Positions 14,364 through 33,549 of a DNA stretch of 39,723 bases are shown here, one piece after another. The stretch spans positions 1 to 39,723 of the forward strand of contig NZ_JAGPBB010000019.1 in NCBI RefSeq assembly GCF_018063565.1, in the 5' to 3' direction. Positions within the stretch are counted from its first letter, which is position 1. Every line of letters starts with the position of its first letter. This DNA is from Rhodoferax sp. (GTDB taxonomy: Bacteria; Pseudomonadota; Gammaproteobacteria; Burkholderiales; Burkholderiaceae_C). Under the pieces are notes generated by a model. The model saw only the letters and a program-made list of their open reading frames with translations. It was not told the origin of the DNA and searched no databases. A program made the position numbers and the translations under genes.

Positions 14364-14372
14364 CCGCGGCTT

Positions 14373-14478
14373 CCGAGGAGCGTTGCAACCCGCATCCTGA
14401 CCCGATAAGGTCAGGTGTCGCGTGAGGCTCGGAGCCCGCCCAAGCGCCCTGCTTGGGCGACTTTCAACGGCGCTCACC
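14373..14478 (+). ncRNA. S-adenosylhomocysteine (SAH) riboswitch
   Basis: The conserved core is present: CGAGGAGCGTTGCAAC (14374-14389), the GAGGCTCGG segment (14424-14432) and AACGGCGCTCAC near the 3' end (14466-14477). Between them are two perfect variable hairpins: CCTGACC/GGTCAGG (14396-14402 with 14409-14415) and CGCCCAAGC/GCTTGGGCG (14437-14445 with 14451-14459). This RNA class senses SAH and activates ahcY, which removes SAH. The gene directly downstream is ahcY, as expected. The GAGCG at 14378-14382 can pair with CGCTC at 14471-14475 to form the closing stem. Confidence 0.95.
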
Positions 14479-14508
14479 CACTGATTGTGTGCGGTGAGCC
14501 TCTTTTTT
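14472..14508 (+). terminator. Riboswitch-controlled intrinsic terminator before ahcY
   Basis: GCTCACC (14472-14478) pairs perfectly with GGTGAGC (14493-14499). The stem can extend by CAC (14479-14481) with GTG (14489-14491) past one bulged C, and it is followed by TCTTTTTT (14501-14508). The left arm reuses the bases that form the 3' strand of the aptamer closing stem. Aptamer and terminator should therefore exclude each other: SAH bound gives read-through, SAH absent gives termination. The structure is seen directly in the sequence, while the direction of control is inferred from the known class behaviour. Confidence 0.85.
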
Positions 14509-14556
14509 CAGCCGCCGCCACACAGTGTTGATTCAAACTTAACCACTGGAGTGAAC

Positions 14557-16008
14557 ATGGGCGCAGCATCCAAACCCGAAAATTTTACCGATTACCACAT
14601 CGCCGACCTCAGTCTGGCGGATTGGGGGCGCAAAGAACTCAACATTGCCGAGACCGAAATGCCAGGCCTAATGGCCATCCGCAGTGAATTTGCCAAGGAC
14701 CAGCCGCTCAAAGGCGCACGCATCACGGGCAGCCTGCACATGACGATCCAGACCGCCGTGCTGGTCGAAACCTTGCAAGCGCTGGGCGCGCAGGTGCGCT
14801 GGGCCTCGTGCAACATCTTCTCGACGCAAGACCATGCCGCTGCCGCCTTGGTGGCGCAGGGTACGCCGGTATTCGCCTACAAGGGTGAATCGCTCACCGA
14901 CTACTGGGACTACACGCACCGTATCTTTGAATTTGGTGGCAAGAAAGGCAGCGCTGCTGAAGGTCCGAACATGATCCTGGACGACGGTGGCGACGCCACG
15001 CTGCTGATGCACCTGGGCAGCCGCGCCGAAAAAGACGCCAGTCTGCTTGACAACCCGGGCAGCGAAGAAGAAGTGTGCCTGTACGCTGCCATCAAGGCCA
15101 AACTTGCGGTGGACCCCACTTGGTACAGCCGCCGCCTGAAAAATATCATCGGTGTGACCGAAGAAACCACCACCGGCGTGCATCGCCTGAACGAGATGAG
15201 CAGCAAAGGCACGCTGATGATGCGCGCCATCAATGTCAACGACTCGGTGACCAAAAGCAAGTTCGATAACCTGTACGGCTGCCGCGAGAGTCTGGTGGAC
15301 GCCATCAAGCGCGCCACCGACGTGATGGTGGCCGGCAAGGTGGCCTGCGTGGCGGGCTACGGCGATGTGGGCAAGGGCAGCGCCCAGGCCTTGCGCGCCC
15401 TCAGCGCCCAGGTGTGGGTGACCGAGATCGACCCGATCAACGCCTTGCAAGCCGCCATGGAAGGCTACAAGGTTGTGACCATGGAATACGCCGCTGACAA
15501 GTGCGACATCTTTGTGACGGCCACCGGCAACAAGAATGTGATCGCGTACGAGCACATGGCGGCCATGAAAGACCAGGCCATCGTCTGCAACATTGGCCAC
15601 TTTGACAACGAGATCGACGTGGCCTCCTTGGCCAAATGCAAGTGGGAAGAGATCAAACCGCAGGTGGACCATGTGATCTTCCCGGCCAAAGGCAAGAAAC
15701 CATCCAAGCGCATCATTTTGCTGGCCAAGGGCCGCCTGGTGAACCTGGGCTGCGGCACCGGCCACCCGAGTTTTGTGATGAGCTCCAGCTTTGCCAACCA
15801 GACGCTGGCGCAGATCGAGCTGTTCACCAAGCCCAAAGCCTACAAGTCCGGTCAGGTCTATGTGCTGCCCAAGCATCTGGACGAGAAAGTGGCGCGCCTG
15901 CACCTGATGAAGGTGGGGGCCATGCTCAGCACCCTGACGGCAGAACAGGCGGCCTACATCGGTGTGTCGGTGGACGGCCCCTATAAAGCCGACACCTACC
16001 GGTATTGA
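14557..16008 (+). CDS. ahcY: Adenosylhomocysteinase (SAH hydrolase)
   Basis: Splits S-adenosylhomocysteine into adenosine and homocysteine, relieving product inhibition of methyltransferases and feeding methionine regeneration. The 483-residue product is of proteobacterial AhcY size. It has the NAD-binding motif GYGDVGKG (267-274) and the C-terminal KADTYRY end typical of the family. The true start is ATG 14557, preceded by GGAG (14548-14551). An in-frame ATG at 14485 lies inside the terminator region and would add 24 unrelated residues. It is the first gene downstream of the SAH riboswitch. It is followed 12 bp later by tlyA. Confidence 0.97.
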
Positions 16009-23409: not shown

Positions 23410-24258
23410 TCAGGTGTAACGTTTGTTGCGCAGGTTGTTTTTCATCTCACGCAGCAAGGGTTGCAGTTTCTCGCTGCCAATGCGCAGCGCCACACAGGTC
23501 GCGACGATGTCGACGATCATCAGATGCAGCAGGCGCGACACCATCGGGCTGTAACGCTCGTAACCCTCGGGGTGGTCGGCGGCCAGGTGGATGTCGCCCG
23601 CCGAGGCCAGCGGCGAACCGCTGGCGGTGATCACCACGGTGGTGGCACCGTTTTTTCGCGCAATGTCACACGAGTCCATCAGGTCACGCGTACGCCCCGA
23701 GTTGCTTATCACAATCACGCAGTCACCCGCTTGCAGCAAAGAAGCGCTCATCACCTGCATATGGCCATCGCTATAAGCCACGCCATTGATCCCCAGTCTG
23801 AAGAACTTGTGTTGCGCGTCCTGCGCAACCACGCCTGAGTTGCCGACGCCAAAAAATTCGATGCGACGCCCGGCATGGTAAGCCGCGGTGAGGGCCGTTA
23901 CCGCTTTGTCAATGGCGCTGGCCGAGGCCTCGTTGCGGTATTTGAGAAACGCCGCCACCGTGTTGTCGATCACCTTGACCATGATGTCGCTGGTCTTGTC
24001 GTCCACGTCCACGCTGCGGTGGATGAAGGGCACGCCCTCGCTTACAGTGCCAGCCAGCTTGAGCTTGAAGTCTGACAGTCCGTCGTAACCCACACTGCGG
24101 CAAAAGCGCACCACGGTGGGCTTGCTGACGTGGGCACGGTCAGCCAACTCGCTGACCGGCATCAATGCAAACGAGCGCGGGTCACTCAGCACGAGTTTGC
24201 CCACCCGCTGCTCCGCCGGAGCCAGTGAGGGCAGGGAAGCTTTGATTCGGTCAAGCAT
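23410..24258 (-). CDS. hexR: RpiR-family transcriptional regulator, HexR-like
   Basis: A 282-residue regulator with an N-terminal RpiR helix-turn-helix (about 1-77, recognition region VSKPTVVRFCRSVGYDG at 44-60) and a C-terminal SIS sugar-phosphate-binding domain (about 125-255: FFGVGNSGVVAQDAQ, VISNSGRTRDLMD). HexR proteins repress zwf and other glucose-catabolic genes and are released by KDPG in pseudomonads. The effector here is unknown. ATG 24258 has a GGAG site. The gene lies 27 bp after zwf on the same strand, so it is probably co-transcribed and self-regulated through the site before zwf (25775-25789). Confidence 0.9.
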   Translation of the reverse strand: MLDRIKASLPSLAPAEQRVGKLVLSDPRSFALMPVSELADRAHVSKPTVVRFCRSVGYDGLSDFKLKLAGTVSEGVPFIHRSVDVDDKTSDIMVKVIDNTVAAFLKYRNEASASAIDKAVTALTAAYHAGRRIEFFGVGNSGVVAQDAQHKFFRLGINGVAYSDGHMQVMSASLLQAGDCVIVISNSGRTRDLMDSCDIARKNGATTVVITASGSPLASAGDIHLAADHPEGYERYSPMVSRLLHLMIVDIVATCVALRIGSEKLQPLLREMKNNLRNKRYT

Positions 24259-24285: not shown

Positions 24286-25740
24286 TCATGCTTCTTCGCT
24301 CCAGCAAAAACCATCCCGCGCAATCATGGCGCTGGTGGCACTCGGCCCCCAACTGCCCGACGCATAGGGCCGCGGCCCCTGCGGGTCGGCGCCCCAATGC
24401 TTCAAAATGGGTTCGACCCAGCGCCAGGCTTCGATCTGCTCGTCGCTGCGCACGAACAGGTTGAGTCGGCCGTCAATCACGTCCAGCAGCAGGCGCTCGT
24501 AAGCACCGACCCGCTCGGCACCAAAGCGTTTGTCAAAATCCAGGTCCAGTTGCACTGGTGCCAGAATGCTGGAGTGCTGGCGTTTGTCCTGGGCCTGGGC
24601 CAGCAGATGCAGCTCCAGCCCGTCTTTGGGCTGCAGGTTGATGATCAGGCGGTTGGCCATGCCAATCTGGGAGTTGAAAATGGCGTGCGGTGTGGGCCGG
24701 AAGTTCACCACGATACGCGCATCACGCCCGGCCAGGCGTTTGCCGGTGCGGATGTAAAACGGCACGCCGGCCCAGCGCCAGTTGGAAATCTCGGTGCGCA
24801 GCGCGACAAAGGTTTCGGTGCGGCTGTCGGGACTCACGCCGAGTTCTTCGCGATACCCCGGCACAGCCTGACCGTTGATCGAGCCCGCGGCGTACTGGCC
24901 ACGGATGACATCCTGTGCCAGCGACTCCGGCGTCCAGGGCTTGAGCGAACGCAGCACCTTGAGCTTTTCGTCGCGGATGGCGTCGGCGTGCGAGTTGATG
25001 GGCGGCTCCATGCCGATGGCGCACAGCAGTTGCAAGGCGTGGTTTTGCACCATGTCGCGCAACGCGCCGGTGGTTTCGTAAAACGCGCCGCGTTTCTCCA
25101 CACCCAGCTCTTCGGCCATGGTGATCTGGATGTTGGCAATGTGCTCGCGTCGCCACAGTGGCTCAAACAACGCGTTGCCAAAACGCAGCGCAAACAGGTT
25201 TTGCACCGAGGGCTTGCCCAGGTAGTGGTCGATGCGGTAGATCTGGTGCTCGGTAAACACCTGACCCACCGCCTGGTTGATGGCGCGGTTGCTGGCAAGG
25301 TCGTGGCCCAGCGGCTTTTCCAGCACCACGCGGGTGTGCTGCGTGTTCAGGCCAGCAGCGGCGAGCTGCTCACAAATGGTGGTGAACAGGCTCGGGGCGG
25401 TGGCCAGGTACATCACCACGGTGTCGACCTGACGCTGCGCCAGTTTGTCACGCAGGTAGACATAATGGTCCGGCTTGGAGAGGTCCATGCGGACAAATTC
25501 AAGCAACTGGCAAAAGCGGGCAAATTCGTCTGGCGTCGGGCGCTTGGCCAGATCCACCTGGGCGAAACGGCCATGAATCAGCTCACGGTACTGTTCGTCA
25601 CTCAGGTCGTCGCGTCCCACGCCAATGATGCGTGCACCTTGCGGCAGGGTGCCGTGTTTGAAGGCCTGGAACAAGGCGGGCATCAGTTTGCGCCAGGTCA
25701 GGTCGCCGGTGCCGCCAAATAGGACAAGATCAAAACTCAT
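24286..25740 (-). CDS. zwf: Glucose-6-phosphate 1-dehydrogenase
   Basis: Oxidises glucose-6-phosphate to 6-phosphogluconolactone with NAD(P). The 484 residues match bacterial Zwf. The coenzyme motif GGTGDLTWRKL starts at residue 9, EKPLGHD is at 141-147 and the active-site RIDHYLGKP is at 169-177 with His172. ATG 25740 has no visible Shine-Dalgarno sequence. A HexR-like palindrome lies 35 bp upstream. No pgl, edd or eda follow within the window, unlike the common zwf-pgl-edd order. The gene is divergent from the ABC importer. Confidence 0.96.
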   Translation of the reverse strand: MSFDLVLFGGTGDLTWRKLMPALFQAFKHGTLPQGARIIGVGRDDLSDEQYRELIHGRFAQVDLAKRPTPDEFARFCQLLEFVRMDLSKPDHYVYLRDKLAQRQVDTVVMYLATAPSLFTTICEQLAAAGLNTQHTRVVLEKPLGHDLASNRAINQAVGQVFTEHQIYRIDHYLGKPSVQNLFALRFGNALFEPLWRREHIANIQITMAEELGVEKRGAFYETTGALRDMVQNHALQLLCAIGMEPPINSHADAIRDEKLKVLRSLKPWTPESLAQDVIRGQYAAGSINGQAVPGYREELGVSPDSRTETFVALRTEISNWRWAGVPFYIRTGKRLAGRDARIVVNFRPTPHAIFNSQIGMANRLIINLQPKDGLELHLLAQAQDKRQHSSILAPVQLDLDFDKRFGAERVGAYERLLLDVIDGRLNLFVRSDEQIEAWRWVEPILKHWGADPQGPRPYASGSWGPSATSAMIARDGFCWSEEA

Positions 25741-25774: not shown

Positions 25775-25789
25775 TGTAACTTAGTTTCA
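25775..25789. promoter_or_regulatory. HexR-like operator before zwf
   Basis: TGTAACTTAGTTTCA is an imperfect palindrome (TGTAAC against the reverse complement TGAAAC) resembling the HexR consensus TGTARTWWWAYTACA. It lies 35 bp before the zwf ATG in the zwf/afuA divergent region. The hexR-like gene is in the same operon as zwf. Further TGTAAY words occur at 25798 and 25807. No binding data can be claimed. Confidence 0.5.
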
Positions 25790-25978: not shown

Positions 25979-26989
25979 ATGAAGAAGGTGTTGGTAGTTT
26001 CGGCACTGGCTCTGGCCAGCGGCTTGGTGCAGGCACAGACGGTGAACGTGATTTGCTCGGTGCAGGCCGAGTGGTGCAACATGATTGGCACGGTCTACGC
26101 CAAGACCACCGGCACCAAGATCAATATCTCGATGAAGGGCTCGGGCGAGGCGCTGGCCCAGTTGATCGCCGAAAAAGACAATCCCAAGACCGACATCTGG
26201 TTTGGTGGCACTGGTGACCCGCACTTGCAGGCGGCCGAATCGGGTTTGTCCATGGAGTACAAGTCCGCCACCTTGCCGCAGTTACAGGGTTGGGCGCAAC
26301 AGCAAGCCCAGCAGTCTGGCTATAGAACGGTCGGCATTTATTCCGGCCCTTTGGGTTTTGGTTACAACACGGAACTGTTGGCGAAGAAAAAATTGCCAGT
26401 GCCGAAAACCTGGAATGACTTGCTCAATCCGGCTCTCAAAGGCGAGATCCAGGTGGCCAATCCGGCATCCAGCGGAACCGCCTACACCATGGTGGCCACG
26501 CTGGTGCAGATGATGGGTGAAGACAAGGCGTTCGAGTACATGAAAAAGCTGCACAAGAACATCAGCCAGTACACCCGCAGCGGCACCGGTCCGATCAAGG
26601 CCGCCGCGCGCGGCGAGACCACGGTGTCGATCAGCTTTGTGCATGACGCGCCGGGTGAAAAACTCAACGGGTTCCCGGTGGAGGCAGTTACCCCCACCGA
26701 CGGCACGGGTGCCGAAATCGGCTCCATGAGCATCATCAAGGGTGCGCGCAACCTGGAAGCTGCCAAGAAGTTCTACGAGTGGGCCTTGACCCCGGCAGCG
26801 CAGGAAATGGCCGCTGCGGCCAAGCAGTTCCAGGTGCCGTCCAACAAGGCGGCCAAGGTTGATCCGAATGTTCCGGATTTCAAGAAAATCAAGTTCATCA
26901 ACTATGACTATGCCAAGTACGGTGCTTCGGCCGAGCGCAAGCGCCTGATCGCCAAGTGGGAAAAAGACGTCAATTCGCTCCCCCGTTAA
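25979..26989 (+). CDS. afuA: ABC importer periplasmic binding protein, AfuA-like (probable hexose-phosphate binder)
   Basis: A 336-residue class F/D-type solute-binding protein with a clear signal peptide (MKKVLVVSALALASGLVQA, cut near 19-20). It would usually be named an Fe(III)-binding protein. However, the segment where FbpA-type iron binders carry a Tyr-Tyr pair reads FVHD here (His222, Asp223), with Glu246 farther on. As I recall, AfuA of Actinobacillus pleuropneumoniae binds glucose-6-phosphate and related sugar phosphates through His205, Asp206 and Glu229, the same 1 and 23 spacing. The neighbours zwf, tal and pgi fit sugar phosphate. ATG 25979 has AGGAG at 25969-25973. An upstream in-frame ATG (25862) is rejected because it would bury the signal peptide. 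Confidence 0.8.
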   Translation: MKKVLVVSALALASGLVQAQTVNVICSVQAEWCNMIGTVYAKTTGTKINISMKGSGEALAQLIAEKDNPKTDIWFGGTGDPHLQAAESGLSMEYKSATLPQLQGWAQQQAQQSGYRTVGIYSGPLGFGYNTELLAKKKLPVPKTWNDLLNPALKGEIQVANPASSGTAYTMVATLVQMMGEDKAFEYMKKLHKNISQYTRSGTGPIKAAARGETTVSISFVHDAPGEKLNGFPVEAVTPTDGTGAEIGSMSIIKGARNLEAAKKFYEWALTPAAQEMAAAAKQFQVPSNKAAKVDPNVPDFKKIKFINYDYAKYGASAERKRLIAKWEKDVNSLPR

Positions 26990-27002
26990 GTTTGTCTGGC
27001 CG

Positions 27003-27039
27003 GCCTGAGCACGGACGGATGTCCGGGCTCAGGCATTTT
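27003..27039 (+). terminator. Strong intra-operon hairpin between afuA and afuB
   Basis: GCCTGAGC-A-CGGAC (27003-27016) pairs with GTCCG-G-GCTCAGGC (27021-27034) around a GGAT tetraloop: 13 base pairs and one A/G mismatch. Only four Ts follow (27036-27039). It sits 13 bp after the binding-protein stop and 16 bp before the permease start. Such hairpins commonly give partial termination or protect the 5' message, so binding protein is made in excess over permease. Confidence 0.75.
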
Positions 27040-27050
27040 GAATACCTCAA

Positions 27051-29261
27051 GTGAACCAAAACCCTAATTTGGCGATCCGCCTCTGGCTCATCACTGGCTT
27101 GCTGGCCTACGTTTTGCTGCCTTGGTACGCCATTCAGGACACCGCCTGGTACAGCGTGCTGCCGCAGATTTTTGGCGGTGCGGAAACGGCCAGCGGACTG
27201 GTTCAGATGCTGGCGCATGGGCGCGTCTGGCTCGGCCTGGGCTTGCTTGGGCTGCTGCTGGCTGCCGTGGGCCTGCTGGTACCACCCGGTCGGCCGCAGA
27301 GCACCTGGTTGCTGGCGGGCGGCCTGGTCGGATTTATCGGTTTGCTGGCCAGTGGGTTCATGATTGGAGCACGCGGCTGGTCGTTTGCGGTGCTGAACAG
27401 CAGCCTGGGTGAACTGGCGGTGAATCAGTATGGCATTGGCATGGGGGCGTTCATCGCCTTGCTGTCTCTGGTCATGCTGACGGCCTTTGGGGTGGCGCGC
27501 CGGGGTTATTTCAAGGGCGACTTGTTCATTGCATCGAGTGTGCTCGGCTGCTCGGTGCTGCTGTTGCTGTTTATTGCTTTTCCGGTGACCAAGGCACTTT
27601 ACGGTGCTTTTTTGAATGAAGAAGGCCACTGGGCCCTGTCGGCGATTTTTGAGCGCATTGGCCATGAACGGGTCTGGGGCTTGAGCTGTCTGGCCGGTGG
27701 AGTGCGTTGCGGTGTGGCCTGGAACACCTTGTTTCTGGCGCTGCTGACCGCCACCGGCACGGTCATCATGGGCACCATGATGGCTTTGCTGGCCGAGCGC
27801 AGTGCCGGACCACGGGTGCAAACGCCGCTTCGGGTGATTGCCCTGTTGCCCATCATCACGCCGCCCTTTGTGGTCGGGTTGGGTCTGATTTTGCTGTTTG
27901 GCCGCGCCGGGGTGGTGAACCAATTTTTGGAATACGCGTTTGGTATGCCGCCCACGCGCTGGTTTTATGGCTTGTTTGGCATCTGGATTGCGCAACTGTT
28001 TGCCTTTACCCCGATCGCCTTCATGATCATGCGCGGCGTGGTGCAGGGGGTGGCCCCGAGTATGGAAGAGGCGGCGCAAACCCTGCGCGCCAGCCGCAGC
28101 AAAACCTTTTTTACCGTGACGCTGCCGCTACTCAAGCCGGGTCTGGCCAATGCCTTTCTGGTCGGATTTATCGAGAGCATTGCGGACTTTGGCAACCCGA
28201 TTGTGGTGGGTGGACAATATTCGGTGCTGTCCACCGACATCTTTTTTGCCATCGTCGGGGCGCAATACGACCAGGGCAAGGCTGCCTCTTTGGCGTGGAT
28301 CTTGACGATGTTTGCGCTGGCGGTGTTTGCCTTGCAGCGCGGCCTGCTGGGCAAGCAAAACTACACCACTGTGAGCGGCAAGGGCGATGCCGGCATCCCG
28401 ATGGCGCTGCCCGACGGTGTGCGCCGGGTGCTCAACACCGTGGTCTACCCTTGGCTGGCGTTCACCGTGGTGGTGTATCTGTTTGCTTTTGCCGGTGGTT
28501 TTGTGCAAACCTGGGGGCGCGACTACACGCTGACTTTCGCCCACTTCAAGACGGCTTTCGGGCTGGAGTGGGGCCAGTTTGGCCTGGTGTGGGCGGGCAC
28601 GGCGTGGAATTCGTTTTTCACCACGGTCAAGCTCGCCGGTCTGGCTGCCCCCATGACGGCGGCCGTGGGTTTGCTGATTGCCTACCTGCTGGCGCGCACC
28701 GAGTTTCGCGGGCAGGGCTGGTTCGAGTTTGTCGCCCTGCTGGCGTTTGCCATTCCCGGCACGGTGCTGGGGGTCAGCTACATTCTGGCCTTCAACGTGC
28801 CGCCGGTGGAACTGACGGGCACCGGGCTGATCATTGTGCTGTCGTTCATGTTCCGCAACCTGCCGGTGGGGGTGCGGGCTGGCACGGCCGCATTCAAGCA
28901 GCTTGACAGGTCGCTCGATGAGGCCTCGGTCATGTTGCGTGCCAGCACCTTCCAGACCTTGCGCCATGTGGTGTTGCCGCTCCTGAAACCGGCGCTGGTG
29001 GCAGCGCTGGTGTACAGCTTTGTGCGCGCCATGACCACGGTGAGCGCGGTGATCTTTCTGGTCACCGCTGAAAACGAACTCGCCACCTCCTACATCATCG
29101 GCCGGGTTGGCAACGGCGACTACGGCGTTGCCCTGGCCTATTGCACGGTGCTGATCATCCTGATGTCGGCGGCGATTGCGCTGATCCAGTTTCTGGTGGG
29201 AGAGCGCAAGCTGGGCCGGCGCAAAGCGGGCCTCAAACTCAACACCATCGCGGCCCATTGA
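27051..29261 (+). CDS. afuB: ABC importer permease, fused double-domain (AfuB/FbpB type)
   Basis: A 736-residue inner-membrane protein with two BPD-type permease halves fused in one chain. Each half has an EAA loop: EEAAQTLRASRSKTF in the first and LDEASVMLRASTFQTL in the second, each followed by LPLLKP. An N-terminal hydrophobic block of about 150 residues (several predicted membrane segments) precedes the first permease domain, making it longer than FbpB (about 500-550) and nearer AfuB (about 690). The start is GTG 27051, with a poor ribosome binding site. The upstream hairpin and weak start both point to lower expression than the binding protein. It follows afuA by 61 bp and precedes afuC by 16 bp. 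Confidence 0.88.
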   Translation: MNQNPNLAIRLWLITGLLAYVLLPWYAIQDTAWYSVLPQIFGGAETASGLVQMLAHGRVWLGLGLLGLLLAAVGLLVPPGRPQSTWLLAGGLVGFIGLLASGFMIGARGWSFAVLNSSLGELAVNQYGIGMGAFIALLSLVMLTAFGVARRGYFKGDLFIASSVLGCSVLLLLFIAFPVTKALYGAFLNEEGHWALSAIFERIGHERVWGLSCLAGGVRCGVAWNTLFLALLTATGTVIMGTMMALLAERSAGPRVQTPLRVIALLPIITPPFVVGLGLILLFGRAGVVNQFLEYAFGMPPTRWFYGLFGIWIAQLFAFTPIAFMIMRGVVQGVAPSMEEAAQTLRASRSKTFFTVTLPLLKPGLANAFLVGFIESIADFGNPIVVGGQYSVLSTDIFFAIVGAQYDQGKAASLAWILTMFALAVFALQRGLLGKQNYTTVSGKGDAGIPMALPDGVRRVLNTVVYPWLAFTVVVYLFAFAGGFVQTWGRDYTLTFAHFKTAFGLEWGQFGLVWAGTAWNSFFTTVKLAGLAAPMTAAVGLLIAYLLARTEFRGQGWFEFVALLAFAIPGTVLGVSYILAFNVPPVELTGTGLIIVLSFMFRNLPVGVRAGTAAFKQLDRSLDEASVMLRASTFQTLRHVVLPLLKPALVAALVYSFVRAMTTVSAVIFLVTAENELATSYIIGRVGNGDYGVALAYCTVLIILMSAAIALIQFLVGERKLGRRKAGLKLNTIAAH

Positions 29262-29277
29262 CAGGAACCTACTCACC

Positions 29278-30324
29278 ATGAGCTACGGCGTTGAATTCAA
29301 GAACATCACCAAACGGTACGGCATCGACAAAAGCGCGCCATTGGTGATCAAGGGGGTGAATTTCGAGATCGAGCAGGGTTCGCTCACCACCATCCTCGGG
29401 CCGTCGGGTTGTGGCAAAACCACCGTGCTGCGGATGATTGCCGGGCTGGAAACCCCCACCGACGGGCAGATTCTGATGCAGGGCAAAGACGTGACCACGC
29501 TGGGGCCCGCCGACCGCAACGTGAGCATGATGTTTCAGAGCTACGCGCTGTTTCCGCACATGAACGTGGTGGAGAACGTGATGTACGGCCTGAAAATGTC
29601 GGGCGTTGAAAAGAGCGAAGCGTCGCGTCGTGCGGTGGAAACCCTGGGCAATGTGGGACTGGTGGGTTACGACGACCGCCTGCCCAGTGAACTCTCGGGT
29701 GGGCAGCAGCAGCGGGTGGCCTTGGCGCGGGCACTGGTGCTGGAGCCTGGCGTGCTGCTTTTCGATGAGCCGCTGAGCAATCTGGATGCGCGCCTGCGCC
29801 GCGATATGCGCGAAGAAATCCGCAGCCTGCAGCAGCGCCTGAAACTCACTGTGGCCTACGTGACCCACGACCAAAGCGAAGCACTGGCGGTGAGCGACCA
29901 GATCATCGTCATGAACGACGGCCTGATTGCCCAGCGCGGCACGCCGCAAGACATGTACGAGCGCCCAGGCAGCGAGTTTGTCGCCGGTTTCATGGGCGAG
30001 GCCATGTTGTTTCCGGGGGTGGCAGATGCGACCGGCGGCGTGCAACTCGGGCCATTGCAGATCAATTCCCGAACACCGGTGGCGGCGGGTAAGGTCAAGG
30101 TTGCCGTGCGCCCCGAGGCCTGGCATATTCACCGCGATGGCATGGGACTGCCCGCCAAGCTGCTCAAACTGGCGTATCTGGGGAGTTTTTTTGAATACAC
30201 CTTTGAGACTACTTTGGGGCCGATTTTTGTCGTATCACCCGACCTCACCGATGTGCTGGCACTGGGAAGCCAGGTCGGCTTGACGCTGGCAGACCATGGC
30301 GTGTCGGTGGTGGCGGCGATTTGA
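29278..30324 (+). CDS. afuC: ABC importer ATPase (AfuC/FbpC type)
   Basis: The 348-residue energising subunit has Walker A GPSGCGKTT (41-49), the ABC signature LSGGQQQ (139-145), Walker B VLLFDEP (159-165), a switch histidine in VTHDQ and a C-terminal TOBE-like region (about 240-348). It is a typical CUT2/Fe-type importer ATPase, and specificity is set by the binding protein. ATG 29278 follows an AGGA site 16 bp after afuB. It is the last gene of the importer. The next gene, tal, starts 57 bp later and may share the message. Confidence 0.92.
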   Translation: MSYGVEFKNITKRYGIDKSAPLVIKGVNFEIEQGSLTTILGPSGCGKTTVLRMIAGLETPTDGQILMQGKDVTTLGPADRNVSMMFQSYALFPHMNVVENVMYGLKMSGVEKSEASRRAVETLGNVGLVGYDDRLPSELSGGQQQRVALARALVLEPGVLLFDEPLSNLDARLRRDMREEIRSLQQRLKLTVAYVTHDQSEALAVSDQIIVMNDGLIAQRGTPQDMYERPGSEFVAGFMGEAMLFPGVADATGGVQLGPLQINSRTPVAAGKVKVAVRPEAWHIHRDGMGLPAKLLKLAYLGSFFEYTFETTLGPIFVVSPDLTDVLALGSQVGLTLADHGVSVVAAI

Positions 30325-30363
30325 GCTGACACGGTAACCGCCTGGTATTTGTCTGCATCGCCA

Positions 30364-30380
30364 CCGCCGGATAATGGCGG
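30364..30380 (+). promoter_or_regulatory. Start-proximal hairpin and possible -10 element of tal
   Basis: CCGCC (30364-30368) pairs with GGCGG (30376-30380), one base before the tal ATG. The loop region holds GATAAT (30370-30375), a good -10 match. If used, transcription would start at about 30382, the A of the ATG, giving a leaderless message. A -35 match is poor (TTGTCT, 30349-30354, 15-bp spacer). Confidence 0.3.
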
Positions 30381-30381
30381 C

Positions 30382-31329
30382 ATGAACCAACTTGATGCAC
30401 TCAAACAATTCACCACTGTGGTGGCGGATACCGGAGACTTTTTGCAAATGGCGGCCTTCAAGCCACAGGACGCCACCACCAATCCGTCACTGATTCTCAA
30501 GGCTGTCCAAAAGGCTGAATACCGGTCCTTGATGACGGAGACCGTGTCCCAGTTCAGGGCGCGCGCGCTGGATGAGCAGATGGATCGTCTGCTGGTGCGT
30601 TTTGGCTGCGAGATTCTGGCCATCATTCCCGGGCGGGTGTCGACGGAAGTCGATGCGCGCCTGAGTTTTGATGCCAGTGCCACCATCACCCGGGCCGAAA
30701 GGCTGATTGAACTGTACCAGGCGCAAGGCATACACATTGATCGGGTGCTGATCAAGGTGGCCGCCACCTGGGAGGGAATTCAAGCCGCTGCCGAACTGGA
30801 GCGCCGCGGTGTGCATACCAACCTGACGCTGCTGTTTTCTTTTGTGCAGGCCGTGGCTTGCGCCCAGGCCAGGGTGCAACTGATTTCTCCGTTCGTTGGA
30901 CGTATTTACGACTGGTACAAAAAATCGGCAGGAAGCCAATGGGTGGAAGCGGATCATGCCGGCGTCAACGACCCCGGTGTGGCATCGGTCAGGCAAATTT
31001 TCAACTATTACAAGAAGTTTGGCATTGCCACCGAGGTGATGGGTGCCAGTTTTCGCAACATTGCACAGGTGACCGCATTGGCCGGCTGCGATCTGCTCAC
31101 CATCAGCCCGGATTTGCTGGCACAACTCGCCCAAAATGACGCGCCGTTGCAGCGGGCCCTGGGTGGCGAGGCCAACCGGACGCAGGACATTGCCCATGTG
31201 ACTTTTGATGAAGCGGGTTTTCGCTTTGCCCTCAATCAGGATGCCATGGCGACAGAAAAACTGGCCGAGGGCATTCGCGCCTTTTGTGCTGATGCCCAAA
31301 AGCTGGACCAACTTTTGCTAGGAGTCTGA
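30382..31329 (+). CDS. tal: Transaldolase
   Basis: Transfers dihydroxyacetone units between sedoheptulose-7-phosphate/glyceraldehyde-3-phosphate and erythrose-4-phosphate/fructose-6-phosphate in the non-oxidative pentose phosphate pathway. The 315 residues match E. coli TalB (317). The Schiff-base Lys125 lies in [12 protein letters not shown], with DTGDF near residue 16 and TTNPSLI at 32-38. The ATG at 30382 gives the family start [10 protein letters not shown]. An in-frame start 33 bp earlier adds a proline-rich stretch with no match. It is followed directly by pgi (1-bp gap), so both products share the fructose-6-phosphate node. Confidence 0.96.
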
Positions 31330-31330
31330 T

Positions 31331-32899
31331 ATGCATACGACCCGCTGTGACCACACCCCTGCCTGGGGACAACTGAAACAACTCTATGCCCGGACGGGGC
31401 AGAGCTTCGATTTGCGCGCCGCATTCGCGGCAGACGCCGAGCGTTTTGCTGCCTTCAGCCAATCGGCACCGCATGTGTTTGCCGACCTGTCGAAGAACCT
31501 GATCGACGCTGCTACCGAGCAGCAACTGCTGGCGCTGGCGCAGCAAAGCGGCCTCGAGCAGCACCGCGAGGCCATGTTTGCGGGTGACAAGATCAATACC
31601 ACCGAAGCGCGTCAGGTGATGCACTGGTTATTGAGAAATCCGCCTCTGGCGCAATCCCAAAAAGAGAATGAAGCTATCGTTTGTGTAGCTAATGAATTGA
31701 CCGATGTGCACTGCACCCTGGATGCCATGCTCACTTATGCCGAGCAGGTGCGCCGTGATGAGAGCATCACGGACGTGGTCAATATCGGCATTGGCGGCTC
31801 TGACCTGGGGCCGCAAATGGCGGTGTTGGCACTGGAGGCGTATGCCACACCCGACAAGCGGTTTCACTTTGTCTCCAACGTGGATGGCCATGAACTGGCG
31901 GCGGTGCTGAAAAAACTCAAGGTTGAGAACACCTTGTTCCTGATTGCCAGCAAAACCTTCACCACCATAGAGACCATGACCAACGCGCACAGCGCCAAAG
32001 CCTGGTTCGAAGCGCAGGGCGGGCGTCAGATTGCGCGACACTTTGCCGCATTGACCACCAACGTGGCGGCTGCAAACGCCTTTGGCATCAGCACCACTTT
32101 TGGTTTCTGGGACTGGGTGGGTGGGCGTTATTCGGTTTGGTCGGCGATTGGTTTGCCGCTGGCCGTGGCCATTGGTGCACAGGGTTTCAAGGACTTCCTG
32201 GCCGGTGCGCATGCCATGGACGAACACTTCCGGCTTGCACCGCTGGCACAGAACCTGCCGGTGCGTCTGGGTATGCTGGATGTCTGGTACCGCAATTTTC
32301 ACGGCTTCACCAGCCGTTCGGTCGCGCCCTACCACAGTGCGCTCAAGCGATACCCAGCGTATCTGCAGCAATTGGAGATGGAAAGCAACGGCAAGGGTGT
32401 CGATGCCCAGGGTGTTGCATTGCCTTTTGCCAGTTCCCCAGTGGTTTGGGGCGAGCCCGGTACCAACGGGCAGCATGCTTATTTTCAGATGCTGCACCAA
32501 GGCACCGATGTGGTGCCGGTGGAGTTTGTGGCGGTCAGAAAACCCCGACATGATTTGCCGGGGCATCAGGGTTTATTGCTGGCCAATGTGCTGGCGCAGG
32601 CGCAGGCGCTGATGCTGGGCAAGGCAGATGCCGGCGGGCACAAAAACTTCCGGGGCAACCGGCCCAGCAGCTTCTTGCTGCTCGACGAACTCAGCCCTGC
32701 CAGCCTGGGGGCCCTGATTGCTTTGCAAGAACATCGGGTGTTTGTCTCGGGCAGTCTGTGGGGCATCAACAGTTTTGACCAATGGGGCGTCGAACTGGGC
32801 AAGGTACTGGCCAAAGATGTGGAAGCGCGCCTGAAAAGCGGTGACGCCACCGGGCTGGATGGCTCCACGGCCGGCCTGCTGGCAAAACTGCGCGCCTGA
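31331..32899 (+). CDS. pgi: Glucose-6-phosphate isomerase
   Basis: Interconverts glucose-6-phosphate and fructose-6-phosphate. The 522-residue protein shows NIGIGGSDLGP (151-161), SKTFTTIETM, the catalytic glutamate region GEPGTNGQHA and the lysine region INSFDQWGVELGK. ATG 31331 follows the tal stop by one base, and AGGAG lies just inside the tal end. Residues about 104-123 (NPPLAQSQKENEAIVCVANE) fall where the family is variable and are encoded by an AT-richer patch (31655-31700). That patch contains AGCTA...TAGCT, perhaps a repeat remnant. With tal, zwf and the importer it completes a glucose-6-phosphate-centred neighbourhood. Confidence 0.96.
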   Translation: MHTTRCDHTPAWGQLKQLYARTGQSFDLRAAFAADAERFAAFSQSAPHVFADLSKNLIDAATEQQLLALAQQSGLEQHREAMFAGDKINTTEARQVMHWLLRNPPLAQSQKENEAIVCVANELTDVHCTLDAMLTYAEQVRRDESITDVVNIGIGGSDLGPQMAVLALEAYATPDKRFHFVSNVDGHELAAVLKKLKVENTLFLIASKTFTTIETMTNAHSAKAWFEAQGGRQIARHFAALTTNVAAANAFGISTTFGFWDWVGGRYSVWSAIGLPLAVAIGAQGFKDFLAGAHAMDEHFRLAPLAQNLPVRLGMLDVWYRNFHGFTSRSVAPYHSALKRYPAYLQQLEMESNGKGVDAQGVALPFASSPVVWGEPGTNGQHAYFQMLHQGTDVVPVEFVAVRKPRHDLPGHQGLLLANVLAQAQALMLGKADAGGHKNFRGNRPSSFLLLDELSPASLGALIALQEHRVFVSGSLWGINSFDQWGVELGKVLAKDVEARLKSGDATGLDGSTAGLLAKLRA

Positions 32900-32925: not shown

Positions 32926-33549
32926 ATGAATATTGTGTTTGACTTTGGTGCTGTGGTGTTCACCTGGCAACCGGCGGTGCTGATACAGCAGGTGTTTACC
33001 CAGCGGGCGGGCGATGTGGATGCCGCCAAACAGCTGGCCCATCAGGTGTTTGGCCATGCCGACTGGCACGCCTTTGATCAGGGGCTGCTGACCGACGATG
33101 AGGTGGTGCAGCGCACTGCCATGCGTCTTGATTTGCCGCTGGAGGCGGTGCATCAACTGGTATTTGGCATCGGTGAGCGGCTGATGCCCATGGAAGGAAC
33201 CCTGGCACTGCTCGATCAACTGCGCATGCGCCGTGATGCCGGTACTGGCGTGACAGGTTTGTACTACCTGTCCAATATGCCGGTGCCCTATGCCCGGATG
33301 CTGGAGCAGCGATTTGCCTTTTTGCAGTGGTTTGACGGTGGCGTGTTTTCGGGGGATGTCAAACACATCAAGCCCGATCCGACCATTTATCGCTTGTTAC
33401 AAGACCGATATCAACTTGTTGGGGAACAGACGGTTTTTGTGGATGATCTTAAAGGCAACGTCAGTGTGGCGCAGGCCCTCGGCTGGAATGGCATCCACTT
33501 CGAGTCGCCACAGCAGTTGCAGGCAGAGCTGGCTTTACTGGGGGTTTGA
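32926..33549 (+). CDS. HAD-superfamily phosphatase, YihX-like
   Basis: A 207-residue HAD hydrolase. Motif I is FDFGAVVF with nucleophile Asp6, and the usual second Asp is Gly8, as in the YihX branch (FDLGNV). Motif II is YLSNMP, motif III is the lysine in HIKPDP, and motif IV is FVDDLKGN. E. coli YihX dephosphorylates alpha-glucose-1-phosphate. Position next to pgi supports a sugar-phosphate substrate, but the true substrate is inference only. It starts 26 bp after pgi. The 3' end overlaps the convergent hydrolase gene by 15 bp. Confidence 0.85.
   Translation: MNIVFDFGAVVFTWQPAVLIQQVFTQRAGDVDAAKQLAHQVFGHADWHAFDQGLLTDDEVVQRTAMRLDLPLEAVHQLVFGIGERLMPMEGTLALLDQLRMRRDAGTGVTGLYYLSNMPVPYARMLEQRFAFLQWFDGGVFSGDVKHIKPDPTIYRLLQDRYQLVGEQTVFVDDLKGNVSVAQALGWNGIHFESPQQLQAELALLGV

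Follow-up and report, generated by a model that had tools for sequence, protein, structure and literature searches.

A predicted AfuABC-type importer of phosphorylated sugars beside zwf, tal and pgi genes in Rhodoferax

Introduction

Uptake of phosphorylated sugars by an ATP-binding cassette (ABC) importer is known from AfuABC, whose periplasmic substrate-binding protein (SBP), AfuA, binds glucose-6-phosphate (G6P), fructose-6-phosphate (F6P) and sedoheptulose-7-phosphate (S7P) through the sugar-phosphate ligand residues His205, Asp206 and Glu229 (PMC4546632). Mutation of any of the three to alanine abolishes binding (PMC4546632, PMC8427247). The related P5PA, a binder of pyridoxal-5-phosphate, is restricted to Pasteurellaceae according to its authors (PMC8427247). 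Functional data on the AfuA family are still scarce, since a preprint of July 2026 surveying structures for G6P binders reports only HptA and AfuA (PMC13419708). Here we examine an ABC importer encoded at positions 25979-30324 of a Rhodoferax sp. contig (NZ_JAGPBB010000019.1, assembly GCF_018063565.1), the whole analysed stretch of 39,723 nucleotides being called the window below. The home genome (G000) comprises 4.13 Mb in 196 contigs and is listed as 93% complete.

We consider it quite probable that this importer is an AfuABC-type system for phosphorylated sugars such as G6P and that it is probably part of a HexR-type regulon, because its gene series continues into tal-pgi and lies opposite zwf-hexR, with a HexR-like box in between. 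Judged by residues and fold, it ranks as a well-supported member of a transporter kind that is already known. A sequence-only reading of this DNA had held such importers little known outside a few Pasteurellaceae; that view does not stand, as Sit et al. (2015) chose AfuA members by the His205/Asp206/Glu229 motif and listed 268 organisms bearing it (PMC4546632). What this analysis adds is the metabolic, and probably regulatory, setting: in many Comamonadaceae an SBP-permease-ATPase-tal-pgi series diverges from zwf-hexR across the box.

Results

Binding-site residues and fold

The match of the SBP to AfuA lies far beyond chance, with a phmmer E value of 1.9e-87 (about 1e-9 for the best iron binder), and the two share 47.7% identity (43.5% for P5PA). 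By sequence and fold, the nearest solved structures are AfuA and VcA0625. In the alignment, His222, Asp223 and Glu246 of the SBP occupy the columns of AfuA His205, Asp206 and Glu229. The sequence-only reading had proposed this correspondence from an FVHD stretch plus Glu246 and from the AfuA ligands, and the aligned columns agree with it; the AfuA ligands it named are confirmed by the AfuA study (PMC4546632). In total, 17 of the 19 AfuA contact positions are identical in the SBP, including the entire phosphate site: AfuA Ser37, Gly38 and Thr60 correspond to Ser55, Gly56 and Thr78, Ser148-Gly149-Thr150 to Ser165-Gly166-Thr167, and Gly185 to Gly202. The ligand residues given by the alignment are Ser55, Tyr121, Thr167, His222, Asp223, Glu246 and Gln285. 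The importer thus shows the traits by which AfuABC systems are recognised, namely the His-Asp-Glu motif, the phosphate-site residues, and a fused permease and one ATPase beside the SBP.

From these computed residue and fold comparisons we infer both the ligand and its transport. The SBP would hold the sugar ring via His222, Asp223 and Glu246 and the phosphate via Ser55, Thr167 and neighbouring residues; once closed, it would pass the ligand to the fused permease, with the ATPase driving transport.

Among 60 relatives (own genome included), at least 49 have some match at E 0.001, and a full-length SBP of 82-96% identity occurs in at least 17 same-genus genomes besides our own among the matches listed. 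In genome_contigs, where all our counts refer to the best 80 loci of at least 594 matching stretches, the closest named loci are Rhodoferax (93% SBP identity); His-Asp-Glu is kept in 79 of 83 SBPs, and 73 of the 83 carry the 19-position signature of the window. A sample across the phylum gave matches at E 1e-60 in 28 of 398 genomes, own included, and His-Asp-Glu is kept in 28 of the 34 SBPs of its 30 loci. Most same-phylum SBPs in this sample are 50-57% identical to the window SBP, and AfuA-like same-class ones 42-48%. These phylum-wide matches indicate a broad AfuA subfamily, in agreement with Sit et al. (PMC4546632).

Gene order of the locus and of its relatives

The locus is laid out as follows.

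23410..24258, - strand: hexR-like regulator gene, RpiR family; its best profile matches are HexR models, at scores below cut-off, and it adjoins zwf in relatives
24286..25740, - strand: zwf, glucose-6-phosphate dehydrogenase (TIGR00871, 556 bits, cut-off 400.6)
25775..25789, no strand assigned: HexR-like box TGTAACTTAGTTTCA; the zwf start codon follows after 34 nt on the - strand, the SBP gene after 189 nt on the + strand
25979..26989, + strand: AfuA-like periplasmic binding protein (SBP), 336 aa, from alignment and structure matches
27051..29261, + strand: AfuB-like fused two-domain permease, 736 aa, putative GTG start, two BPD_transp_1 stretches
29278..30324, + strand: AfuC-like ATPase, 348 aa, with a TOBE domain, from the open reading frame (ORF) list and domain search
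30349..31329, + strand: tal, transaldolase (TIGR00874, 440.2 bits, cut-off 396.2)
31331..32899, + strand: pgi, glucose-6-phosphate isomerase (PRK00179, 698.8 bits, cut-off 492)

The extent of the three importer ORFs and the long, AfuB-like fused form of the permease are as the sequence-only reading had described them. Its placing of the operon between zwf-hexR and tal-pgi also holds, with zwf, tal and pgi above their cut-offs and the regulator matching HexR best at a sub-cut-off score. Although tal is listed from a TTG at 30349, the ATG at 30382 (MNQLDALKQ) is the likelier start. The + strand gaps from SBP through pgi are then 61, 16, 57 and 1 nt, so short that the five genes likely form a single operon. 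Our promoter/terminator scan showed no terminator-like site in the ATPase-tal gap. Next after pgi comes a HAD-family hydrolase gene (window 32926-33549, +), possibly a sugar phosphatase, a homologue of which stands between ATPase and tal in Variovorax and other relatives.

We counted the context of 17 same-genus loci (L036-L052). A divergent zwf lies upstream of the SBP in 14 of the 16 that can be judged (exceptions L039 and L048; L038 is too short), and tal and/or pgi follow downstream in 13 of 15 (exceptions L043 and L044 within the available flank; L037 and L047 are too short). Flanks of at least 2.5 kb upstream and 8 kb downstream are available for 52 of the best 80 genome_contigs loci; in 31 of these, one or more of the four genes (zwf, hexR, tal, pgi) stand where expected, and 27 show both sides of the setting. 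Some Variovorax and Limnohabitans loci have the setting and others lack it, and in L238 zwf lies upstream on the same strand as the SBP. In five same-genus genomes with no close AfuA among the matches listed (G002, G004, G012, G014 and G032), tal and/or pgi lie directly opposite the box and zwf, with pgi only in G014. This makes the transporter a cassette that was either acquired or lost at the point between the box and tal-pgi.

Zwf acts on G6P, Pgi on G6P and F6P, and Tal on S7P and F6P. The ligands of AfuA are thus the substrates of the neighbouring enzymes, an argument for the specificity that does not depend on the residues. Imported sugars would arrive already phosphorylated and be usable at once by Zwf, Pgi and Tal.

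A HexR-like box between zwf and the importer

A first, stricter HexR pattern, TGTARTTNNANTACA, allowed up to 2 mismatches and gave no intergenic site, with 3 elsewhere in the window (1.57 expected). The box was recognised only after 15 orthologous zwf-SBP intergenic regions had been aligned, so the pattern was defined post hoc. It is conserved in 14 of these 15, as TGTAACTTRGTTTCA or as the truer palindromes TGTAACTTAATTACA and TGTAACATAGTTACA; L042 has one further change and L052 keeps the first half only.

In the own genome, the box occurs at three places with at most 1 mismatch, compared with none for a reversed-pattern control. One of these (1 mismatch) lies just before edd (TIGR01196, above cut-off); near the one at G000:C91 no target could be recognised. 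An exact search of 40 same-genus genomes gave 26 sites, spread over 24 of them, and a single site for the reversed pattern. Of the exact sites, 24 stand beside zwf or hexR-zwf and two before pyruvate kinase, in two relatives. The zwf-side occurrence is partly by construction, because the pattern was derived from that position; more independent evidence comes from the sites at edd and pyruvate kinase, the cassette-free genomes and the genome_contigs loci. With up to 2 mismatches, the box is present in 32 of 101 SBP upstream regions, compared with 0.1% of 1000 base shuffles, and in five of those 32 it lies 10-30 nt before the SBP, where none was seen for the window SBP. The places before edd and pyruvate kinase fit HexR targets, since the gammaproteobacterial regulator is reported to control zwf, edd and pyruvate kinase (PMC5343134).

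From the computed gene order, the extent to which it is conserved, and the statistics of the box we infer co-transcription, HexR binding and its effector. The importer would belong to a HexR-type regulon that is turned on as Entner-Doudoroff intermediates rise. The effector of HexR would be 2-keto-3-deoxy-6-phosphogluconate, as the title of PMC5489143 also has it.

Sister binding proteins

Tandem SBP genes ahead of one permease/ATPase pair occur in L040, L123, L221 and L222; in L040:8012-10073 and L123:7949-10000, the latter from outside the genus sample, the first SBP carries His-Glu-Glu and the second His-Asp-Glu. The same-genus loci L060-L067 encode AfuA-like SBPs with Phe-Gly-Glu and 47-49% identity. 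No AfuB-like permease lies nearby, some flanks being short, and L060 and L067 show weak matches to other ABC ATPases; the L060 gene (L060:3672-4715) sits between pseudouridine synthase and alpha/beta hydrolase genes. On a quick tree, the four rows with Phe-Gly-Glu fall on a single starred branch. Ala-Leu-Glu SBPs are found in L056 and L057 of the same genus. In L056:1754-5413 such an orphan SBP has a 7TMR-DISM sensor histidine kinase and a response regulator of OmpR type as neighbours, and it may be part of a sensor.

A second full AfuABC operon with His-Asp-Glu and 69-72% identity is present in some same-genus genomes (L053:1302-7873, L055:4266-11877 and L054). It has an extra ATPase upstream of the SBP, with a histidine kinase in L053 and L055 and also a response regulator in L055.

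Elsewhere in the window, an S-adenosylhomocysteine (SAH) riboswitch of ordinary kind lies at 14369-14482 on the + strand (Rfam RF01057, 45.4 bits). The ORF directly 3' of it (14485-16008) resembles S-adenosylhomocysteinase, a name given by eye.

Discussion

Weighing the readings

Several findings weigh against the AfuABC reading or its setting, and we take them together with the explanations on which they bear. As to the ligand, two contact positions differ, AfuA Thr11 being Gln29 and Ile186 being Thr203 in the SBP, and P5PA likewise has Gln at the position of Gln29. The quick tree was built from 69 of 159 SBPs after thinning at 84% identity and has many open forks and several long branches. 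On it, a single starred group unites AfuA, VcA0625 and P5PA with some same-class relatives but leaves out the window SBP, which lies in the weakly resolved remainder; SBP and AfuA do not group to the exclusion of P5PA. With AfuA and P5PA together and the SBP apart, the SBP is by descent no closer to AfuA than to P5PA, and because the two group together, the residues and not the tree favour AfuA. We do not treat the grouping as defining, because Sit et al. define members by residues. His-Asp-Glu is present on both sides of the tree, and it is thus probably ancestral, with a loss in P5PA. Our literature search found no binding or transport data for betaproteobacterial members.

Such points would suit an AfuABC-like importer with a shifted ligand, e.g. 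glucosamine-6-phosphate, mannose-6-phosphate, 6-phosphogluconate or pyridoxal phosphate. P5PA shows that the ligand can change in this subfamily (PMC8427247), and it clusters with AfuA apart from the SBP on the tree. Besides Gln29, common to P5PA, and Thr203, unlike AfuA, altered residue sets (His-Glu-Glu, Phe-Gly-Glu and Ala-Leu-Glu) occur in same-genus relatives. We nevertheless consider a shifted ligand unlikely, as the SBP has Asp223 and Glu246, which AfuA needs and P5PA lacks, and the adjacent genes encode enzymes for G6P, F6P and S7P. We hold pyridoxal phosphate in particular to be improbable solely because of Asp223 and Glu246, as the tree is of no help. P5PA proteins are recognised by Ala at both positions and at least 65% identity; the SBP shows Asp, Glu and 43.5%.

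As to the setting, 21 of the 52 genome_contigs loci have none of zwf, hexR, tal and pgi nearby, the full set appears among the 30 phylum-sample loci only in L210 (same family), and none of the four occurs at the 13 loci from other families of the same class (L219, L225-L236; two short-flanked). Exact box sites are missing from 16 of the 40 same-genus genomes, and even with 2 mismatches allowed the box is absent from 69 of the 101 SBP upstream regions. The window box is nearer to zwf than to the SBP and agrees with the Vibrio HexR consensus palindrome, TGTAATTAAATTACA (PMC11906056), at 11 of 15 positions and differs at 4. The scan showed no promoter-like site upstream of the importer genes. In addition, the regulator scores below the HexR cut-offs, with 281.5 bits for the bifunctional HexR/glucokinase model PRK14101 (cut-off 920) and 248.5 for the HexR model PRK11302 (cut-off 296) as its best NCBIfam matches, and we therefore call it HexR-like. 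The transporter could then be as supposed and its surroundings devoid of functional or regulatory meaning, a view that the 21 neighbourless loci and the 13 same-class loci favour and to which a box serving zwf alone would be no obstacle. We rate it as slightly less probable still than a shifted ligand, for the same order recurs in Rhodoferax, Variovorax, Ramlibacter, Polaromonas, Limnohabitans, Acidovorax and Xenophilus at 70-93% SBP identity.

A ferric-iron importer (FbpABC), the common annotation of such genes, has next to no chance and was ruled out. Ferric binders such as FbpA and HitA carry adjacent Tyr-Tyr iron ligands, which the SBP lacks. The home genome encodes a separate FbpA (G000:C21), whose best PDB match is the Fe(3+) binder 7li0 (E 1.1e-119), and both MAFFT modes used (160 rows) as well as hhalign place its TYYFG over SFVHD of the SBP, so that Phe220-Val221 fill the Tyr-Tyr columns. 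The SBP is moreover only 15-22% identical to the iron binders listed. The sequence-only reading had argued from the lack of Tyr-Tyr for hexose phosphates and against iron, and the columns, the AfuA contact residues and the fold all support it. A phosphonate (2-aminoethylphosphonate) importer is equally improbable and was ruled out on the NCBIfam cut-offs: phnS2 and PhnU2 are the top NCBIfam matches of SBP and permease, but at 208.6 against 392.75 (TIGR03261) and 265.8 against 593.25 they fall far short, and the SBP matches AfuA far better than the putative phosphonate binder 4r6y.

We also dropped the idea that the importer substitutes for glucokinase. The home genome, 93% complete, gave no PF02685 glucokinase match; it has two ROK-family proteins, taken as kinases, and six of the seven PF02685-bearing genomes among the 40 of the genus carry the cassette. 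The UhpT family gave eight matches in the home genome, all below cut-off.

Possible meaning in Comamonadaceae

A wider picture, to which we give about even chances, is that Comamonadaceae hold AfuABC inside a HexR-controlled zwf-hexR/tal-pgi divergon. Imported G6P, which Zwf and Edd would convert to the effector of HexR, would derepress its own importer; extracellular sugar phosphates would be a regular source of carbon and phosphorus, and the sisters with altered residues would extend the system to further phosphorylated ligands and to sensing. We found no account of this operon or of a HexR-afuABC link in the titles and abstract openings surveyed, subscription journals being mostly uncovered, nor anything on AfuA in Variovorax or on hexose-phosphate ABC transporters in Burkholderiales. 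If the picture is true, sugar phosphates, e.g. from lysed cells, feed free-living bacteria beyond animal hosts. If the AfuABC reading is right, a transporter type often annotated as an iron importer supplies phosphorylated sugars to many Comamonadaceae, and their predicted diets change. Cassette-bearing and cassette-free genomes of one genus, together with the altered-residue sisters, offer ready test pairs.

Comparison with known systems

Among the described G6P binders, HptA of Staphylococcus aureus is presumably a sensor and not an importer. It is 19% identical to the SBP and is titled a two-component-system protein (PDB 6lkg). P5PA belongs to the same subfamily as the SBP and has a similar phosphate site, yet it carries Ala at the Asp206 and Glu229 positions, where the SBP keeps Asp223 and Glu246 (PMC8427247). 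VcA0625 (PDB 8x1a), by its title a periplasmic G6P binding protein, has 45.5% identity. The trait list of AfuABC also includes nanomolar binding of G6P, F6P and S7P and uptake rescuing a uhpT mutant. From its gene name, we take VcA0625 to be a Vibrio cholerae protein.

The window importer differs from AfuABC in sequence, with 48% identity for the SBP and 43% for the permease, and in setting, as the AfuA-like loci examined in other same-class families have no zwf, hexR, tal or pgi alongside. Its permease (736 aa) is about 50 residues longer by listed starts than the 687-aa AfuB-like ORF of L232, which adjoins a protein 99% identical to AfuA. With AfuABC of Actinobacillus pleuropneumoniae (PMC4546632) it shares the residues of the sugar and phosphate sites, the fold, the fused permease with one ATPase, and the order SBP-permease-ATPase.
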